The notes under the pieces: model-generated
The model's input: the letters and a program-made list of their open reading frames with translations, nothing else
The model's database searches: none
What the model was told of the DNA's origin: nothing
Assembly: GCF_000377705.1 (NCBI RefSeq)
Contig: NZ_KB898624.1
Span: forward strand, 364,516 to 428,515
Direction: 5' to 3'
Length of the DNA: 64,000 bases
DNA from: Salsuginibacillus kocurii DSM 18087
GTDB lineage: Bacteria > Bacillota > Bacilli > Bacillales > Marinococcaceae
Shown here: positions 40,047 through 53,783 of the stretch, piece after piece
Numbering within the stretch: position 1 is the stretch's first letter
Layout of the letters: each line of letters starts with the position of its first letter
Made by a program: the position numbers and the translations under genes

Positions 40047-40817
40047 TTAACGTTCATTAAAACGAGGAGCTAATACTTGTCTCATTTTATACAATGCTTT
40101 GGAATGAATTTGTGAAATCCGAGAGGTAGAGAGCTCTAAAACTTCTCCAATTTCAGTGAGGGTCAGCCCTTCATCATAAAATAAGCTAATGACTAGCTGT
40201 TCTCTGTCATTCAACTTCTCTATGACCGAACGAAGGTCTTCTTTTAGTGCATCTCTGTCTAATTGTTGTTCAGGAGTAGGTGTGTTGGGGTCTTCAATCG
40301 TGTTGCGGTAACTTTCTTCCCGTTCTGAATCGGCAGTTTCTTCATCAATAGAGAGCATATTACTCACAAAACTGTCTGCATTTACTTTTATAACTTCCTC
40401 TGTATTCATTTCTAGTTCTTCAGCAATCTCTTCTGCTGTTATCAATCGACCTTTTTCTTGTTCAAGCCGTTCAGTCACGTCATCAATTTTTTTGGCTTTA
40501 TCCCGCACGGAACGAGGAAGCCAATCTTCGCGACGGAGCCCATCAATAATGGCCCCCCGCACCCGAAATGAAGCATATGTATCAAATTTCAAATCACGAC
40601 TTCTATCGAATTTTTCCAATGCATCGTACAAACCTATTAGTCCATGGCTGATTAACTCTTCTTTATCTACATTTTTAGGAAGGCCCACTCCAATTCGATG
40701 AACATGATAATGAACGAGTGACATATAAGATTCCACCAGCACATCAGCTGCGGTGCTTGAACGATTTTCTTCCCACTCTATCCAAGCTTTATCAAGCGTC
40801 TCTTCTGTAATTCGAAT
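40047..40817 (-). CDS. sigD: RNA polymerase sigma factor SigD (sigma-28)
   Basis: FliA-family sigma factor for late flagellar, autolysin and chemotaxis genes. Region 2 is in VGLPKNVDKEELISHGLIGLYDAL and KFDTYASFRVRGAIIDGLR; region 4 ends LSTSRISQIHSKAL. The first ATG/GTG/TTG in frame is GTG 40742, which has no Shine-Dalgarno and would remove the conserved first ~25 residues. In-frame sequence upstream (ETLDKAWIEWEENRS) resembles the B. subtilis SigD N-terminus. The strong AGGGGGT at 40825-40831 is 7-8 bp before an ATT at 40815-40817, so an AUU start is proposed (256 residues). Confidence 0.9.
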   Translation of the reverse strand: MRITEETLDKAWIEWEENRSSTAADVLVESYMSLVHYHVHRIGVGLPKNVDKEELISHGLIGLYDALEKFDRSRDLKFDTYASFRVRGAIIDGLRREDWLPRSVRDKAKKIDDVTERLEQEKGRLITAEEIAEELEMNTEEVIKVNADSFVSNMLSIDEETADSEREESYRNTIEDPNTPTPEQQLDRDALKEDLRSVIEKLNDREQLVISLFYDEGLTLTEIGEVLELSTSRISQIHSKALYKMRQVLAPRFNER

Positions 40818-40829
40818 GACGATTACCCC

Positions 40830-41195
40830 CTATCGTTCATTGACCATTTCTTTTAAAACGTTTGCCGTAGCTTCGGCATTTTCTTCGGAGAAATCAGGGT
40901 CCTCTTTACGCTCAGTCTGGTAAGAAGAAGGAGAGTTTTCCTTCGTTTCAGCCTCTTCCTGTTTACGTTGTTCGATCTGTTCAGGCGAGTCTTCTAACTG
41001 AGTACCGTCATCTTTTAATAATGCTGTGTAAATAAGGTATCTAATACCATATGAAGCAACAAAAAACACCGCAAAGCCAATCCCTGCCCGAAGGAGGGCA
41101 CGTTCAGGCAAAACAGCTGTCAGCGAAAGAAAAAATACTGTTAGAAATGCAAAGGTCGCGATTACAGCATTCATTTTCCAAGTTCCTATCATCAT
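40830..41195 (-). CDS. small membrane protein between cheD and sigD
   Basis: 121 residues of unknown family. Two hydrophobic segments (residues ~8-28 and ~35-58) are followed by a charged, Glu/Gln-rich cytoplasmic-like tail. The first ATG overlaps the cheD stop by one base; a second ATG at 41174 has AGGA upstream and is an alternative. Its stop is 12 bp before the proposed sigD start and lies in the sigD frame. It is absent from this place in B. subtilis. A motility role is suggested only by its neighbours. Confidence 0.75.
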   Translation of the reverse strand: MMIGTWKMNAVIATFAFLTVFFLSLTAVLPERALLRAGIGFAVFFVASYGIRYLIYTALLKDDGTQLEDSPEQIEQRKQEEAETKENSPSSYQTERKEDPDFSEENAEATANVLKEMVNER

Positions 41196-41692
41196 TAAAT
41201 CACAACTTCTCCTTGGTTAACTGTTCGTATTTTCAAACTTGCATCCTCAGGATCAAATTCTATCGTCCTGCCATTACTTCCACCGGTGTCTTCGGCAATC
41301 AGCCTAATCTGATAATTGTTTAAAAACTTTTTAACTGCTTCAACATTACGAGGGCCGACGCGCATGATTTCAGATGAACCAGCAAATGAAAACATTTGTG
41401 CGCCCCCTGCGATTTTTGCTTGCATATTAATTTTCATGCTTCCAAAGGATTCTAGTTTTTCAATGGCAGCTGCAATGGCGGTGTCTGCATATTTAGCTAT
41501 ATTCAACGCCCCTGGCTTGCTCATTGACGAATCCGGGAGCATCACATGAGCCATCACTGCCCTTTGGCATTGCTCATCGTATATCACTAGTCCTATACAT
41601 GATCCGAGACCTGAAGTACGCAACAGCTGTGGTGGACTGCAGTCATTCATATCCGCCATTCCCACTTTTACTACTTGTCTGACACTAGGCAT
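41195..41692 (-). CDS. cheD: Chemoreceptor glutamine deamidase CheD
   Basis: 165 residues. Deamidates receptor glutamines and works with CheC in adaptation. Catalytic Cys in GLGSCIGL (~Cys32) and His in MAHVML (~His49), then a conserved KIAGGAQMF and GPRNVEAVKKFL. The ATG overlaps the cheC 3' end by 8 bp. The adjoining cheC matches its known partner. Confidence 0.94.
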   Translation of the reverse strand: MPSVRQVVKVGMADMNDCSPPQLLRTSGLGSCIGLVIYDEQCQRAVMAHVMLPDSSMSKPGALNIAKYADTAIAAAIEKLESFGSMKINMQAKIAGGAQMFSFAGSSEIMRVGPRNVEAVKKFLNNYQIRLIAEDTGGSNGRTIEFDPEDASLKIRTVNQGEVVI

Positions 41693-42305
41693 GCAAGTCG
41701 ACTCCTAAAGCGTGAAATAAAGGTGTAAACGAATCCGGATCCGGCAATAAAAAGAATTGTCCAGTTGAAGCATAGCCATATTCATTTGTCACTTCACGTA
41801 TCTCCGTATCAATGACAATTGCAAAGTCACCAACACGTGAAATTTCAAGTAAGCCAAAACTAAGGATAGCCCCTGCCATGTCAATTGTTAACGAAGGAAC
41901 GGATGGTTGGATGTTTAAATTAGTGAAATCCGATAACGCTGATAAATACGAACCAGCTAAAATGTTGCCTAATTCTTGTAAAGATGAGAGTCCCATTTCA
42001 CTGTATCCTATTTTACTTGATTCCCCGGTTAAGTCATAAATCAACTGCACCGCTTCATCTTCAGGCACGATTAAAAACATGCTGCCGGGCACTTCGCCCT
42101 CTATCCGCAAAAAGGTGGCCGCTACTACCTCTTCAGCCCCGCCAACTAATTCGGTAATCTCTTGAAAGCTAACAATTCGAACGGAAGGAACTGTCATTTC
42201 AATCGGTTTTGCCAACAGTGCAGAAAACGCAGTGGCCGCATTGCCTGCTCCAATGTTTCCAATTTCCTTTAAGATATCAAGGTGATAAGACTGAATCCGC
42301 TTCAT
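41685..42305 (-). CDS. cheC: CheY-P phosphatase CheC
   Basis: About 206 residues. Both phosphatase helices are intact: LKEIGNIGAGNA near the N-terminus and LQELGNILAGSY in the second half, each with the E..N pair. Dephosphorylates CheY-P and binds CheD. The frame opens at GTG-type codon 42326, but ATG 42305 is 6 bp after GGGTGG and gives the family N-terminus MKRIQSYHLDILKEIGN. It directly follows cheB, with no cheA or cheW between. Confidence 0.94.
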   Translation of the reverse strand: MKRIQSYHLDILKEIGNIGAGNAATAFSALLAKPIEMTVPSVRIVSFQEITELVGGAEEVVAATFLRIEGEVPGSMFLIVPEDEAVQLIYDLTGESSKIGYSEMGLSSLQELGNILAGSYLSALSDFTNLNIQPSVPSLTIDMAGAILSFGLLEISRVGDFAIVIDTEIREVTNEYGYASTGQFFLLPDPDSFTPLFHALGVDLHA

Positions 42306-42375
42306 AATTTCCACCCACACGCACAACCTTTAATTTCCATTATTTTTACCCGCTAAGGTCTTAACGTCTAATTCA

Positions 42376-42405
42376 ATTATACCATTTCCAGGCGAATCTT
42401 GGCAT
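42376..42405 (-). promoter_or_regulatory. extended -10 promoter in the cheB-cheC gap
   Basis: Minus-strand ATGCCA (42400-42405), 18 bp, then TGGTATAAT with a perfect TATAAT (42376-42381) and the TGn extension. It lies 70 bp upstream of the cheC ATG, in the place where cheA and cheW are missing. It would drive cheC, cheD, the small membrane gene and sigD. Confidence 0.6.
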
Positions 42406-42415
42406 AATTTCGGAA

Positions 42416-43471
42416 TTAATTCATTCCGTCAACAGTTTGGTTGGTAGCTGCTACGATTTCAGCAGCAACATCCGGAAGAGATACAACTGCATCAAGTTCG
42501 CACGCTGCTTCTGCTGCTTTCGGCATGCCATACACAATAGAAGTAGACTCATCTTCAGCAATCGCATAACAGTTACCAGCCTGCTTTAAATAGTGGAGGC
42601 CATTGCTCCCATCATCTCCCATACCAGTTAGAATCACTGCCACAGCAGCATAGTCTTCGAGCTGATAAGCTGATAAGAACAAGCTATCAACAGATGGACG
42701 ATGCCCTTTTATTGGAGGTGCATCACTCAGTTGAATCGTAACGCTTCGGCCAGTCATTTTCACTTCCATATGAGAACCACCCGGCGCGATGTAAATGGTA
42801 CGGTTTTGTACAATCTCGCCATCTTCTCCTTCTTTAACAGTTAAAGAAGTTAATGAATTCAAGCGCGCTGCCAGCGACTTTGTGAACTTCGGCGGCATAT
42901 GCTGTACAATAAGCACGGGTACAGAAAAATCTCGCGGCAAGTCAGTGAGTACTTGTTGAAGAGCTTTGGGTCCTCCAGTTGAAGTCCCAATTAAGACAAG
43001 CTTTTTACCATCTGGTTCAAAAGAAAGGGGGGCAGCACTTCTTTTGCGAGCTGGCCTTTTCTCCAGTTTGTTCAAATTAATACTTGCAGCTGTTTCAATC
43101 TTTTGAAGCAATTCCTCTTTAACTTCTTCCATGCTAAGAGAAATAGCGCCTCCAGGTTTTCTCACTACATCAACAGCACCTAAGCTCAAGGCTTTAATCG
43201 TATTTTCTGTTCCAAGAGCGGTGGTGCTGCTTACCATAATTGTAGGAATGCGGTCGTGCTCCATGATTGCCTGTAACGTAGCTAACCCATCTAATACAGG
43301 CATCTCTATATCGAGGGTTATCACATCGAATCGTTCTTGAGAAAGCTTTTTCAGCGCATCTTCTCCATTTCTAGCAGTTGCTTTCACTTCCATGTTCAAA
43401 GAAGTATCGATGAAATCTGATAGAACCTTTCTCATAAATGCTGAGTCATCTACAACCAGCACTTTAATCAT
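42416..43471 (-). CDS. cheB: Chemotaxis methylesterase CheB
   Basis: Two-domain enzyme removing methyl groups from chemoreceptors. Receiver domain with VVDDSAFMR and phospho-acceptor Asp54 (ITLDIEMP); methylesterase domain with IGTSTGGPKAL (~Ser164), VQHMPPKF (~His191) and MGDDGSNG. 351 residues from ATG 43471, which follows GAGGAGG by 6 bp and lies one bp after the flhG stop. Its normal activating kinase CheA is not encoded beside it. Confidence 0.96.
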   Translation of the reverse strand: MIKVLVVDDSAFMRKVLSDFIDTSLNMEVKATARNGEDALKKLSQERFDVITLDIEMPVLDGLATLQAIMEHDRIPTIMVSSTTALGTENTIKALSLGAVDVVRKPGGAISLSMEEVKEELLQKIETAASINLNKLEKRPARKRSAAPLSFEPDGKKLVLIGTSTGGPKALQQVLTDLPRDFSVPVLIVQHMPPKFTKSLAARLNSLTSLTVKEGEDGEIVQNRTIYIAPGGSHMEVKMTGRSVTIQLSDAPPIKGHRPSVDSLFLSAYQLEDYAAVAVILTGMGDDGSNGLHYLKQAGNCYAIAEDESTSIVYGMPKAAEAACELDAVVSLPDVAAEIVAATNQTVDGMN

Positions 43472-43472
43472 A

Positions 43473-44348
43473 TCATCCCTCCTCTTTGCCAAAAAAACGG
43501 CGAAAACGGGTAGCAAACGCCGTAAATGTGGAAGAAGGATTCACGGCTTCTTCCCCTGAGAACGTTTCAGCCAAATGTTGTATCGCCCGGCTCGCTTTTG
43601 CTTTTGGCTGGTTAATTAGAACAGGCACCTGCCTCCGCACTGCTGTTAAAACAGATGAATCATCCGGGATGGTGCTTAATACTCGAAGCTCTTTTTGCAA
43701 AAATTGGGCGGTAACACGGCTTAAATTCTCCCCTGTCTGTTTCCCTTCATGAGGCGACTGGACCCGGTTAACTATTAAAGAAATCGGCAAGTCTTTATCT
43801 TCAAGGTGTAAATACTTTATCATCGAATACGCATCCGTAATTGAAGTGGGCTCCGGCGTAGTAACTAAGAGTGCTTCGTGAGCTGCCATTATAAAATGCA
43901 TGCTGTCATGCGTAGCTCCCGCTCCCATATCGAGGACAATCGTATCAATATGTCCCTTTAATGATTCAAGTTGAGTTAAAAAGCGTTCGCGCTTTTGTTC
44001 ATTCATTTCAAATAAATTGGTAAGTCCACTACCGCCAGCAATAAACTTCAACCCGTATGGCCCTTCATTCATAATGTCCCAGATAGAAAACTCACTATCT
44101 ATCATGTCGACAATAGAATAAGGCGAGCTTTTCCCAAGTAAAATATCGATATTAGCCATCCCTACATCAAGGTCTAAAAGCAACACGCGCTGCCCTGCTT
44201 GTGAAAGAGCAACTGAGAAATTGACAGAGACGTTGCTTTTGCCTACGCCTCCCTTACCACTTACAACTGTGACTATTTTCATCTCTTCAACAGTCTTTGC
44301 TTGCCTCGCTTCCATCCGCTTTCTTAAATTTCTCGCTTGGTCACTCAT
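43473..44348 (-). CDS. flhG: MinD-like ATPase FlhG (YlxH)
   Basis: Controls flagellar number and placement with FlhF and feeds FliM/FliY into the C-ring. Deviant Walker A GKGGVGKS (~31-38), LLDLDVGMANIDILLG, and VLDMGAG. 291 residues from ATG 44348 (GAGGGA 7 bp upstream); a start 15 bp upstream is open but less well placed. The N-terminal DQARNLRKRM resembles the activator helix that stimulates FlhF. Overlaps flhF by 8 bp. Confidence 0.94.
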   Translation of the reverse strand: MSDQARNLRKRMEARQAKTVEEMKIVTVVSGKGGVGKSNVSVNFSVALSQAGQRVLLLDLDVGMANIDILLGKSSPYSIVDMIDSEFSIWDIMNEGPYGLKFIAGGSGLTNLFEMNEQKRERFLTQLESLKGHIDTIVLDMGAGATHDSMHFIMAAHEALLVTTPEPTSITDAYSMIKYLHLEDKDLPISLIVNRVQSPHEGKQTGENLSRVTAQFLQKELRVLSTIPDDSSVLTAVRRQVPVLINQPKAKASRAIQHLAETFSGEEAVNPSSTFTAFATRFRRFFGKEEG

Positions 44349-45543
44349 TGGATAGTCCCTCATTTAATACTTCAGTCATGCGATCTGATGTAGCTTCAAA
44401 CATATCATCAGGCACATTTTGACCAGTTGTGACGTAGGCGATGCCAGTACCATAAGCTGCAATCATATTCATAATAGCCCCATAGCTCGTTGTTTCATCT
44501 TTTTTAGTGAAAATCAACTTATGAATTGGAATTAATGAAAAAGATTCATATATTTGCTTCATATCTTGATATTTAGACGTTAATGCAAGAACGAGGTATG
44601 TTTCCATTTCCGTATCAAAGTCTATCAGCTTTTTTAATTCTTCAACGTATAGTTCGTTACGAAAGTTACGGCCAGCTGAATCGACGAGCACGACATCGTA
44701 CTCTGCATAGTTTGCTTTTGCTTCGCGAAAGTCTTCGATTGAATAAGCTACTGACACTGGCACATTTAATATTTTCGCATACGTTTTCAACTGATCTACC
44801 GCTGCGATTCGGTAGGTATCCGTGGTTATAAGAGCGACTGATTTTTTCTTTTTTAATTGAAAATCTGCGGCCATTTTTGCAATAGTCGTCGTTTTACCTA
44901 CGCCGGTAGGTCCAACGATGTTAATGAAGCGGCCTCCTCGCTCCGATTCTCCGCCAAAGGCAATGCCTTCCATTAATTGCTGAACGTAAGAAGATAACCA
45001 CTGAAGAATGGTTTTTTCACTTGGTTCGCTCTCTTCCTCGTACCAACGCTTTAATAAATGACGCATCATATCGAGACGAAGCGTATCATCAACCTCTTGT
45101 TGTTCTAGTTTTTGATGAATGGTTTCCAATAGTGGTGGATAAGAAGTGTCTTTTTGCTGTGATAAACCTGCGATCATCTTTTTTAAATCTTTTACTTCTT
45201 CATGCAAGTCGTCTCGCTGAGCTTCTTTAGACACTAGCTTCTGCCGGTTATCTTCATTCTCAGCCAGCATTCCTTCTGGATGCCGGGCAGTAGTCTTTGG
45301 TGTTCGAAGCGGTGGCTCCTGCTGTTTATTCATATGAGTGGGCTTACTATGCTTTTGTTCAGCTTTTGGCGGTTTAGGGTCAATGGCGGCAATAACTTCA
45401 ATTGATTGCCGCTTAAAAAAACCTAAAAAACCGCCGCGCTCCACTTTTTTTTGATTTAAAATGACAGCCTGGTCTCCCAGTTCATTTCGGACCTGCTGCA
45501 TCGCTTCAGGCATAGAGCTTGCTTGAAATTTTTTCACTTTCAT
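44341..45543 (-). CDS. flhF: Signal-recognition-particle-type GTPase FlhF
   Basis: Directs the placement of new flagella. N-terminal B domain (MKVKKFQASSMPEAM..., VILNQKKV), variable linker (~65-110), NG GTPase domain with VGPTGVGKTTTIAK (~210-223), VLVDSAGR and TKKDE. 400 residues. Its ATG overlaps the flhA stop by 4 bp. Neighbour flhG is its regulator. Confidence 0.95.
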   Translation of the reverse strand: MKVKKFQASSMPEAMQQVRNELGDQAVILNQKKVERGGFLGFFKRQSIEVIAAIDPKPPKAEQKHSKPTHMNKQQEPPLRTPKTTARHPEGMLAENEDNRQKLVSKEAQRDDLHEEVKDLKKMIAGLSQQKDTSYPPLLETIHQKLEQQEVDDTLRLDMMRHLLKRWYEEESEPSEKTILQWLSSYVQQLMEGIAFGGESERGGRFINIVGPTGVGKTTTIAKMAADFQLKKKKSVALITTDTYRIAAVDQLKTYAKILNVPVSVAYSIEDFREAKANYAEYDVVLVDSAGRNFRNELYVEELKKLIDFDTEMETYLVLALTSKYQDMKQIYESFSLIPIHKLIFTKKDETTSYGAIMNMIAAYGTGIAYVTTGQNVPDDMFEATSDRMTEVLNEGLSNE

Positions 45544-51139: not shown

Positions 51140-51502
51140 TTATGCCAGGGTTTTATTAATCGCTTCTAATACGCGGTCTGCCTGAAAAGGCTTGACAATG
51201 AAATCTTTTGCTCCGGCTTGAATCGCATCAATCACCATAGCCTGCTGCCCCATAGCAGAACACATAACGATATTTGCTTCCGGGTCGAATGTTTTAATTT
51301 CCTTTAATGCAGCGATGCCGTCTTTTTCTGGCATGGTAATGTCCATTGTCACTAAATCAGGAGTTACTTCTTTATAAAGATCAACTGCTTCCTGACCGTC
51401 TTTTGCTTCTCCCGCAATTTCATACCCATTTTTCTCTAAAATATCTTTAACCATCATGCGCATAAAAGCAGCATCATCTACGATCAAAACTGTATAAGCC
51501 AT
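51140..51502 (-). CDS. cheY: Chemotaxis response regulator CheY
   Basis: Single receiver domain of 120 residues that carries the signal to FliM. Acid pocket Asp9/Asp10, phospho-acceptor Asp54 (VTMDITMP) and Lys104 (FIVKPF). The frame opens three codons earlier, but ATG 51502 is 5 bp after AAGGTGG and gives the standard protein. Lies between fliY and fliZ as in B. subtilis. Its kinase CheA is not encoded in this window. Confidence 0.96.
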   Translation of the reverse strand: MAYTVLIVDDAAFMRMMVKDILEKNGYEIAGEAKDGQEAVDLYKEVTPDLVTMDITMPEKDGIAALKEIKTFDPEANIVMCSAMGQQAMVIDAIQAGAKDFIVKPFQADRVLEAINKTLA

Positions 51503-51529
51503 CATTTCCACCTTCCGTGTTCTATAGGT

Positions 51530-52801
51530 TTATTTCAATTTTTTGAGCCGGTCTTCTGGACTTACAATATCCGTCACACGTACGCCGAAGTTTTCTTCAA
51601 TCACTACAACTTCCCCTTTGGCAATCAGCTTTTGATTCACAAGGATATCGACTGGCTCTCCTGCTAATTTATCCAGTTCAATAATAGACCCTTGAGAAAA
51701 TTCGAGAATCTCTCGAATTGAACGCTTCGTTCTGCCCAGCTCGACTGAGACTTCAAGTGGAATGTCCATCAGCATATTTAAATTCTTCGTTTCTGTTTCA
51801 TTTAATTGCGGCGCGTCAAATGAAGAAAAAGCAGCCGGCTGCACATCTTTTGCTCTATTATTCATGTGCCCTCCCAATTGCTGTGGCTCAGAAAAACCTC
51901 CCGGCGCCTGTTGATAAGCGGGCTCCTGATTCGTGCTCATGCCTTGATTCGGCTGGGTATTTGGCTGAGGTTCGGGCTCTATTTGTTCTGACTCACTTGT
52001 TTCAGGCGAAGCAAGAGTTTCTGCTTCCTCCTCAGGCGGGTTCATTAAGTCTTCTACCATTTGCTTCGCAAACCCTACTGTTACTAATTGCATCAACACT
52101 GAATCTATCAGATCTCCTACTTGGAGACGGAAGGAGATTTTTATTATTGTTTCATCTCCTGGCACTTTGTCTGTGCCTTCTTTTTCTGTAACATCCAGTA
52201 CATCAATGCCAGGAGGGGAAATATCCACCCGTTTGTTAAAGACCGTCGACATAGAAGTCGATGCACTACCCATCATCTGATTCATCGCTTCTTGGACAGC
52301 ACTTAAATGCATATCGCTTAATTCCTCAGCTGGTGCCGTGCCGTCGCCCCCCAGCATAAGATCGGCAATAATTGCCGCATCCGTTGAATCAATAACGAGT
52401 AAATTCGTGCCTTCAAACCCATCTGTATATTGGACATGGATCGATACATGTGGGTTCGGGAATTCAGCTTCTAATAATTCTGAGTGAATAGCACTTACGA
52501 CCGGCGTTGTAATATCTACTTTTTGGTTTAAAAGCTGAGCTAACGCTGTTGCCGCGCTCCCAAATGAAATATTTCCGATTTCACCTAGAGCGTCCTGTTC
52601 AATCGTGGTCAAGTAATCATCTACATTTAATGCCGCTTTACTGTTCGGTGGAGGGTAGCCGTTACCATCTCCACCATCATCTCCGCCGCCTCCTCCAGTT
52701 GGAGGCTGGCTGTCACTGTCCTTATCTCCTGCATCATCATTATTTACGCCTTTTAGCAGTTCATTGATTTCATCCTGCGACAGCATATCATCATTCATCA
52801 T
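51530..52801 (-). CDS. fliY: Flagellar motor switch phosphatase FliY
   Basis: C-ring component combining a CheC-like CheY-P phosphatase with a FliN domain. From ATG 52801 (423 residues): N-terminal DMLSQDEINELLKG that binds CheY-P, an acidic Gly-rich linker (~25-50), phosphatase helices EIGNISFGSA and VQEAMNQMMGSA, a variable Glu/Pro/Gln linker, and a C-terminal SpoA/FliN domain ending VTDIVSPEDRL. Its 5' end overlaps fliM by 11 bp. Confidence 0.95.
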   Translation of the reverse strand: MMNDDMLSQDEINELLKGVNNDDAGDKDSDSQPPTGGGGGDDGGDGNGYPPPNSKAALNVDDYLTTIEQDALGEIGNISFGSAATALAQLLNQKVDITTPVVSAIHSELLEAEFPNPHVSIHVQYTDGFEGTNLLVIDSTDAAIIADLMLGGDGTAPAEELSDMHLSAVQEAMNQMMGSASTSMSTVFNKRVDISPPGIDVLDVTEKEGTDKVPGDETIIKISFRLQVGDLIDSVLMQLVTVGFAKQMVEDLMNPPEEEAETLASPETSESEQIEPEPQPNTQPNQGMSTNQEPAYQQAPGGFSEPQQLGGHMNNRAKDVQPAAFSSFDAPQLNETETKNLNMLMDIPLEVSVELGRTKRSIREILEFSQGSIIELDKLAGEPVDILVNQKLIAKGEVVVIEENFGVRVTDIVSPEDRLKKLK

Positions 52802-53783
52802 CTTCACCCTCCTCAATTTCCTCGGTTACTTGAACCGCTAAATGGTGGTTCACTTGTCCCGGCTGTGCTTTATATTTTCTTTCGCCACCGACATAAACGG
52901 GCAATGGCTCGTCAATTCTTTGGTCAAGTTCCATAACATCGCCAGAGTTTAAATACAACAATTCTTCTACCGTAATCTGCGAGCGGCCAAGTAGAGCCTG
53001 GATAGGTAATGGAGCTTTTTTAACAGTAGCTTCAAGCGCTTGTTCCTCTCCTGCGTTTCGTTCTCGTTTTTTGGTCTGCATCCAGTGATGGACATTCAAT
53101 TTTGGCAGAATCTCTTCTAGAACCACGTGTGGAAGACAAATGTTAATCATGCCGGTCGTTTCATTTATCGTGGTAGAAAGGGAAATGACAACGACCGTTT
53201 CATTCGGAGAAACCATCTGTAAAAACTGGGGGTTCACTTCTAAATCTTCCATAACTGGTTCCATGTCAATGACTGAACTCCACGCTTCCTGAAAGCTGTC
53301 AAGCATTCGTTGAAATAATTGAGATATAATTCTCGTTTCAATTTCAGTAAGATTATCTACTTTATTTATGCTTGACCCTTTTCCCCCTAACAACCGATCA
53401 AGCATGGCATAGCCAATGTTTGGGTTCGTTTCCATGAGTAAGCGCCCTTCAAGCGGATAAGAATCAAAAACATTTAACAGCGTCATTTTGGGCACTGACC
53501 GGATAAACTCTTCATATGGAAGCTGATCTACTGAAGCAACAGAAATTTGCACGAAGGTGCGAAGCTGAGCTGATAAGGCAGTAGTTAAAAGCCGGGCAAA
53601 GTTTTCGTGGATTCGAGAGAGGGAACGGACCTGATCTTTTGAAAAGCGAAGCGCTCGTTTAAAGTCATATGTTTTTACTTTTCGCTCCGTTTCTTCTTGT
53701 TTTAAATCATCCGCATCCATTTCTCCAGTTGATATCGCGGACAAGAGTGCGTCAATCTCACCTTGCGACAGAACATCGCTCAT
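52791..53783 (-). CDS. fliM: Flagellar motor switch protein FliM
   Basis: C-ring subunit that binds CheY-P and FliG. N-terminal CheY-binding motif SDVLSQGEIDALL, central CheC-like middle domain without a phosphatase site, and C-terminal SpoA domain (LPIQALLGRSQITVEELLYL). 330 residues from ATG 53783, which follows AGAGGTG by 6 bp; the frame is open three codons further. Confidence 0.96.
   Translation of the reverse strand: MSDVLSQGEIDALLSAISTGEMDADDLKQEETERKVKTYDFKRALRFSKDQVRSLSRIHENFARLLTTALSAQLRTFVQISVASVDQLPYEEFIRSVPKMTLLNVFDSYPLEGRLLMETNPNIGYAMLDRLLGGKGSSINKVDNLTEIETRIISQLFQRMLDSFQEAWSSVIDMEPVMEDLEVNPQFLQMVSPNETVVVISLSTTINETTGMINICLPHVVLEEILPKLNVHHWMQTKKRERNAGEEQALEATVKKAPLPIQALLGRSQITVEELLYLNSGDVMELDQRIDEPLPVYVGGERKYKAQPGQVNHHLAVQVTEEIEEGEDDE

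Follow-up and report, generated by a model that had tools for sequence, protein, structure and literature searches.

The chemotaxis genes cheA and cheW departed from the fla/che operon once, in the common ancestor of five families, and now lie in a separate operon together with a second cheY and sometimes cheX, a reading to which we assign a probability of about 0.92. The change in gene order is real, functional-looking and old, and it is ordinary inside its clade. We analysed it starting from a stretch of 64,000 nucleotides of the Salsuginibacillus kocurii DSM 18087 genome, hereafter the window. In Bacillus subtilis, the genes are arranged in the order flhG-cheB-cheA-cheW-cheC-cheD-sigD. Apart from the cheA-cheW block, the gene order of the operon is the same in the window, where the relevant features are as follows.

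40047-40742, minus strand: sigD, named from similarity and conserved order
40830-41195, minus strand: small gene between cheD and sigD without a Pfam match, swrB-like by position only
41195-41692, minus strand: cheD (Pfam PF03975)
41685-42305, minus strand: cheC, of the CheY-P phosphatase family (Pfam PF04509), with its start ATG at 42305
42306-42415, minus strand: cheB-cheC gap of 110 bp, the site of cheA-cheW in other Bacillales, which holds a candidate extended -10 box
42416-43471, minus strand: cheB, with receiver and methylesterase domains (Pfam PF00072, PF01339)
43473-44363, minus strand: flhG, named from similarity and conserved order
51140-51511, minus strand: cheY of the fla operon (Pfam PF00072)
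51530-52816, minus strand: fliY, with CheC-like and FliN domains (Pfam PF04509, PF01052)

The junction is as an earlier note on this DNA had described it: cheB ends at 42416 and the ATG of cheC lies at 42305 on the same minus strand, 110 bp apart, and the pair that separates these two genes in operons of the B. subtilis type is missing from the site. After flhA, the orders flhF-flhG-cheB and cheC-cheD-sigD are kept, where flhF, flhG and sigD are what we take these genes to be from similarity. CheY, CheB, CheC, CheD and FliY, all listed as present in that note, were each named by Pfam, and their active-site residues were judged by eye against known motifs. The absence of cheA and cheW from the window was likewise confirmed. 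The CheW-domain family (CheW itself; the domain is also part of CheA and CheV) matched three places in the genome, none of them within the window, and tblastn with the CheA and CheW of the same genome as queries yielded no match in the window at an E value of 1 or better.

The kinase was found elsewhere, as the note had expected. The fla/che operon with cheB-cheC-cheD is on contig 2 of the assembly and cheA-cheW on contig 1, where cheA (691 aa), cheW (153 aa), cheY2 and cheX (156 aa) follow each other in one direction. The encoded CheA has all five domains (Hpt, P2, H-kinase_dim, HATPase_c and CheW in Pfam), and the products of the three genes beside it matched CheW, Response_reg and CheX. The CheW-domain matches correspond to the CheW and CheA of contig 1 and to position 267020 of contig 2, where a CheV-sized frame of 318 aa with a CheW domain is located about 2.6 kb from a receptor. 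The whole-genome check for cheA, cheW and chemoreceptors that had been proposed recovered all of them, with 14 receptor signalling domains and one CheR, so that the genome holds CheW, CheY, CheB, CheC, CheD, FliY, CheR and receptors. Since CheA, CheW, CheR, receptors and a CheV-sized protein were all found, a Bacillus-type chemotaxis set is present, and we infer that the contig-1 cheA and cheW drive chemotaxis. The suggestion that the adaptation and phosphatase proteins might be fed from a different phosphate source is unsupported. The further suggestion of a deletion or relocation of a two-gene block holds in part: cheA-cheW moved and were not lost, both genes being on contig 1, whereas the separate operon, with its second cheY and cheX, exceeds two genes.

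The assembly is a draft of 23 contigs, and a misassembly that displaced cheA and cheW from their true position between cheB and cheC could be suspected. The junction is however located inside a contig of 469 kb, and many other assemblies, including some that consist of a single contig, have the identical junction. Because it recurs in independent genomes, we reject misassembly, whose probability we consider negligible. A tblastn search of 25 split junction loci at E 0.01 detected no remnant of CheA or CheW. The cheB-cheC gap was at most 62 bp or replaced by an overlap in 23 of the 25 split relatives measured and is longer in the window genome; the two relatives with longer gaps are G001 from the window's genus, with about 104 bp, and G072, with about 132 bp. 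Inside the G072 gap (L208) there is a long inverted repeat.

The distribution of the arrangement was examined in a linkage sample of 61 genomes, consisting of the window's own genome and 60 relatives. With a strong CheA match defined by an E value below 1e-100, and the trivial G050 and G053 hits excluded, CheA was recorded in 58 of the 61 genomes and CheD as well in 55, the three genomes with CheA and no CheD being G005, G023 and G051. The two genes were linked, at distances of 1257-1499 bp, in 26 of the 55 genomes, all of them outside the window's family. In the remaining 29 they were widely separated or on different contigs. These 29 comprised every genome of the window's family that had both genes (27/27) and 2 of 28 others, namely G030 (f3) and G033 (f6). 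Another 30 genomes were added from a 299-genome order sample (15 from f3 and f6, one from each of 13 new families, and two from f24), so linkage within that sample refers to chosen genomes, a minority of it. All of the added genomes except G094 contained CheD; by reading or by coordinates, 17 were split and 12 linked. For G063 linkage was scored by the CheW-CheD distance, and the split calls for G072, G169, G286, G306 and G170 combine the cheB-cheC junction with a genome-wide CheA match. In all, the split was observed in five families: f1, f3 (10/10), f6 (7/7), f42 (1/1) and f45 (1/1). The note had named a standard order across the genus as an outcome that would count against it, and with respect to peculiarity this is what was observed: the arrangement is standard in the genus (2/2), in the window's family (27/27) and in the genomes tested from four sister families (19/19).

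We also scanned named loci, taking the best 80 of 473 matches (top identity 49%). Among these 80, flhG was located upstream of cheB in 31, including loci from Tissierella, Paenibacillus and Fusobacteria, and 27 of the 31 had the order cheB-cheA-cheW-cheC; three others extend only as far as cheA or cheW, and one only to cheB. The other 49 loci, with different che clusters or none readable, are uninformative on order. The order containing cheA-cheW was read in loci of Bacillus litorisediminis, Melghiribacillus, Piscibacillus, Paenibacillus and Tissierella.

Trees inferred from different genes group the split genomes. In a tree of RpsB, Tsf, SigD and FlhA with 50 rows, from which G013 and several near kin were left out, the 27 split rows formed one clade with 99 bootstrap and 98 SH-aLRT support, and a smaller quick tree (20 split of 39 rows) recovered the split clade with an SH-aLRT of 97. 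The genes for all four proteins are in or beside the same operon, so this is not a genome-wide species tree. A quick CheA tree placed 27 of 29 split rows in one clade (SH-aLRT 99), and another placed 28 of 30 in a single clade. The rows outside the split clade in free trees were those of g7 (G007 and G015), on a long branch. A separate origin of the g7 CheA was considered and is not forced, since AU tests do not reject one clade (p 0.556; p-AU 0.783 with 29 rows). The long or broken rows G051, G042 and G025 were dropped from the CheA trees with AU tests, further near kin within genera were dropped from the tree with 29 split rows, and the G021 CheA, which consists of two short frames, was left out of every CheA tree. 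The two frames of CheA in G021 and G025 (L145, L149) reflect either true breakage or draft errors.

These trees bear on the alternative that the resident cheA-cheW was deleted and that a foreign chemotaxis operon took over. While the cheX in the operon and the position of the g7 CheA outside the clade would fit such a replacement, the split CheA proteins branch among the Bacillales fla-type CheA, beside linked rows, and the second-type CheA present in G032, G033 and G037 shares only 38-41% identity with that of the window genome. Moreover, the CheA tree and the tree of the neighbouring genes both group the split genomes, g7 aside. We therefore regard a xenologous replacement as very improbable.

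The 13 relocated CheY proteins, from f1, f3 and f6, formed a single clade (SH-aLRT 95) in a tree for which the fla CheY came from a minority of the genomes; the fla CheY of G012 and G014 were missed by the motif search. The relocated CheY are 74-82% identical to the CheY of the window, and this close paralogy to the fla CheY indicates that duplication did occur. It is compatible with a two-step history, in which duplication of the whole block preceded loss of the fla/che-operon copy, instead of a one-step move. Yet in none of the 55 genomes did a linked fla-type cheA coexist with a relocated one, the second matches being either weak or of the 38-41% type, and we consider duplication followed by loss the unlikelier route, though not a negligible one.

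The gene content around the relocated kinase varies. Next to cheW there was a cheY in all 14 clusters read from f3, f6 and f42, 4 of which had a recognisable cheX, and in the 29 clusters from the window's family cheY was present in 11 and cheX in 9. In the stretch read, pst genes were near cheA in 20 of these 29 family clusters, with one PhoU confirmed among the pst-site neighbours, and rodA or pdaA in 6 more. The G001 cluster, near a contig end, has one other neighbour in common with the window genome, and the two g7 genomes have no cheA neighbour in common with it. The g7 loci (L131, L139) have cheW before cheA in a different neighbourhood; together with the position of the g7 CheA outside the split clade, this suggests that g7 could have obtained its copy by replacement at a later stage. 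The kinase operon of the sister families is located in other neighbourhoods than that of the window's family, which implies that the operon moved again or that the genomes were rearranged. From the sequences, a single departure would be the simplest history: cheA-cheW would have left the fla/che operon and gained a copy of cheY and a cheX, and the operon of the window's family would then have settled at the pst site, with losses of cheY2 and cheX later.

Other features of these loci were recorded in individual genomes. The relocated cheA of G030 is preceded by a gene for a PAS-GGDEF-EAL protein (L153, 3959-5644), and frames of 562 and 543 aa adjoin cheA in G142 and G193, respectively. In g8 (L171, L178) the order was cheB-cheD, with no cheC recognised by BLAST. 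No flhA, flhF or flhG was recognised beside cheB in G013 (L176), where cheC and fapA are in two frames and 3 of the 5 receptor matches are in frames shorter than 150 aa, and its motility genes may thus be decaying.

The cheB-cheC gap of the window contains a candidate extended -10 box, TGGTATAAT, at 42376-42384 on the minus strand, and a matching short island, TGGTACAAT, is present in the gap of G001 (L165, around 4668) from the same genus. Given how often the motif occurs across the window's minus strand, 110 bp would be expected to hold 0.01 such sites. None of the gaps in the other 20 split relatives scanned contained the box, the one match in G069 being inside cheC. It could be an internal promoter for cheC-cheD-sigD. 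Matches to sigma-70-type promoters around the operon were at the chance level (10 versus 11.3 expected), and there were 2 in the cheB-cheC gap region against 0.8 expected. A SigD promoter for the window genome's own cheA was not supported, as there was no exact pattern and the best score was equalled by 0.475 of the shuffles; a TAAA-N-CTCGATA string before this cheA is weak. The SigD-like core YCGATAT was present upstream of the relocated cheA in 16 of 31 regions versus 0.66 expected, the own genome being among those without it, and all 16 came from four genera (g3, g6, g8 and g12) and thus represent few independent cases. We predict that the relocated kinase operon has a promoter of its own.

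The move brought sigD closer to the start of the operon. In 20 split loci, sigD starts a median of 4358 bp after flhA ends, versus 6881 bp for the 16 linked loci, in a comparison that excludes loci lacking further genes, for instance flhF or flhG. In the window this distance is 4801 bp. According to PMC9250202, which cites Cozy and Kearns 2010, the fall in transcript along the operon and the location of sigD near the 3' end matter for bistable SigD in B. subtilis. Since sigD is about 2.5 kb nearer the operon start, higher SigD would be expected by analogy, and sigD is predicted to be expressed somewhat more strongly in the split operon.

In the working that we propose for the split system, the receptors, CheW and CheV would control CheA as in B. 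subtilis, CheA would phosphorylate both CheY proteins and CheB, and phosphate would be removed by FliY, CheC and CheX. The kinase would be transcribed from its own promoter, and sigD somewhat more strongly than in an unbroken operon. Compared to the operon of B. subtilis, cheA-cheW is found elsewhere and is accompanied by a second cheY and by cheX; CheX is not known from B. subtilis. Of the B. subtilis chemotaxis set with CheV, CheC, CheD and FliY (PMC11357200), the window genome has CheA, CheW, CheB, CheC, CheD, FliY, CheR and receptors, along with a CheV-sized protein, and it differs by the extra CheY and CheX. The CheB of G012 (209 aa; L175, 4286-4912) consists of the esterase domain only. 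Going by length only, the CheB frames from three f3 genomes and from G061, which measure 199-208 aa (L210-L212, L205), suggest the same, as do those from G035 and G043, with 199 and 211 aa. CheA phosphorylation would presumably not control an esterase-only CheB in the normal manner.

Two separate genomes that have flagellar operons encode a CheA without the P5 domain:

L129, 6150-7739: P5-less CheA of one genome
L155, 5549-7135: P5-less CheA of the other genome

One of them, G005, belongs to the window's family and has cheA at the relocated site; the other, G051, belongs to f24 and has cheA inside the fla/che operon. Both proteins contain the Hpt, P2, H-kinase_dim and HATPase_c domains and lack the CheW domain. 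The HTLKGM and ATPase motifs are kept and the protein stops right after the last ATPase motif, with the next gene about 200 bp beyond cheA in G005 and about 155 bp beyond it in G051, which leaves no room for P5 and CheW. Family searches of the two genomes detected no CheW-domain protein, CheD, receptor or CheB. CheY, FliM and FliY are kept in both, with FliM and FliY confirmed in G005. The G005 operon presumably reads from fliG to flhA and then directly sigD, as similarity suggests, and the order in G051 is flhG-cheA-sigD. In the 299-genome order sample, CheA and the CheW domain were each present in 272 genomes. Comparison by eye of the genomes listed gave two mismatches, G051 with CheA only and G228 (80% complete) with the CheW domain only, where seven unlisted genomes were taken, from their missing numbers, to be the same for both. 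Within the genus of G051, G094 had no CheD and one weak CheW-domain match (3.6e-17), and G127 had the usual linked set.

G005 and G051 are located in different parts of the four-gene tree, and hence the P5-less state arose twice. The nearest kin of g5 in this tree are g4 and g11, for which a CheB family search was negative in all five genomes tested (G004, G011, G017, G022 and G026); the two genomes tested for receptors had 2 and 4. In loci L168, L174 and L179 from g4 and g11 there was no flhF, flhG or cheB between flhA and cheC. In B. subtilis, according to PMC12848376 and PMC11357200, CheY-P promotes counterclockwise rotation and smooth swimming, unlike in E. coli. As CheY-P favours straight runs there, a receptor-less cell would need unregulated basal CheA activity to swim well. 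A tentative reading, which we place just short of even odds, is that the sensory half was lost twice independently and the kinase kept as a receptor-free generator of a fixed run bias, in which case g4 and g11 would be steps on the way. The P5-less CheA may instead represent decay on the way to loss, or may serve another partner.

A survey of 13,673 CheA proteins (PMC10782961) reports a CheW domain in 100% of them and identifies CheA by its kinase and CheW domains. Judged by the domains named there, the proteins of G005 and G051 have P1, P3 and P4 and lack P5, the CheW domain, and with such a definition P5-less proteins could have been missed. Some CheA proteins, among them variants from Rhodobacter sphaeroides, are known to lack domains (PMC2829493, PMC10782961); compared with these non-classical forms, the CheA of G005 and G051 keep P1-P4 and are without P5 only. 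A search of the full-text literature by titles and the starts of abstracts, with most subscription journals outside its coverage, found no description of a split or of a P5-less CheA.

A gene order common to Tissierella, Paenibacillus and most sampled families of the Bacillales has thus been disrupted, most likely in a single event, at the base of a clade of five families. The split genomes offer a natural experiment on whether motility is tuned by how far sigD lies from the operon promoter, and on whether the kinase and adaptor must be co-transcribed with the receptor-modifying enzymes. A P5-less CheA in cells without detectable receptors would show chemotaxis reduced to a role in motor bias.
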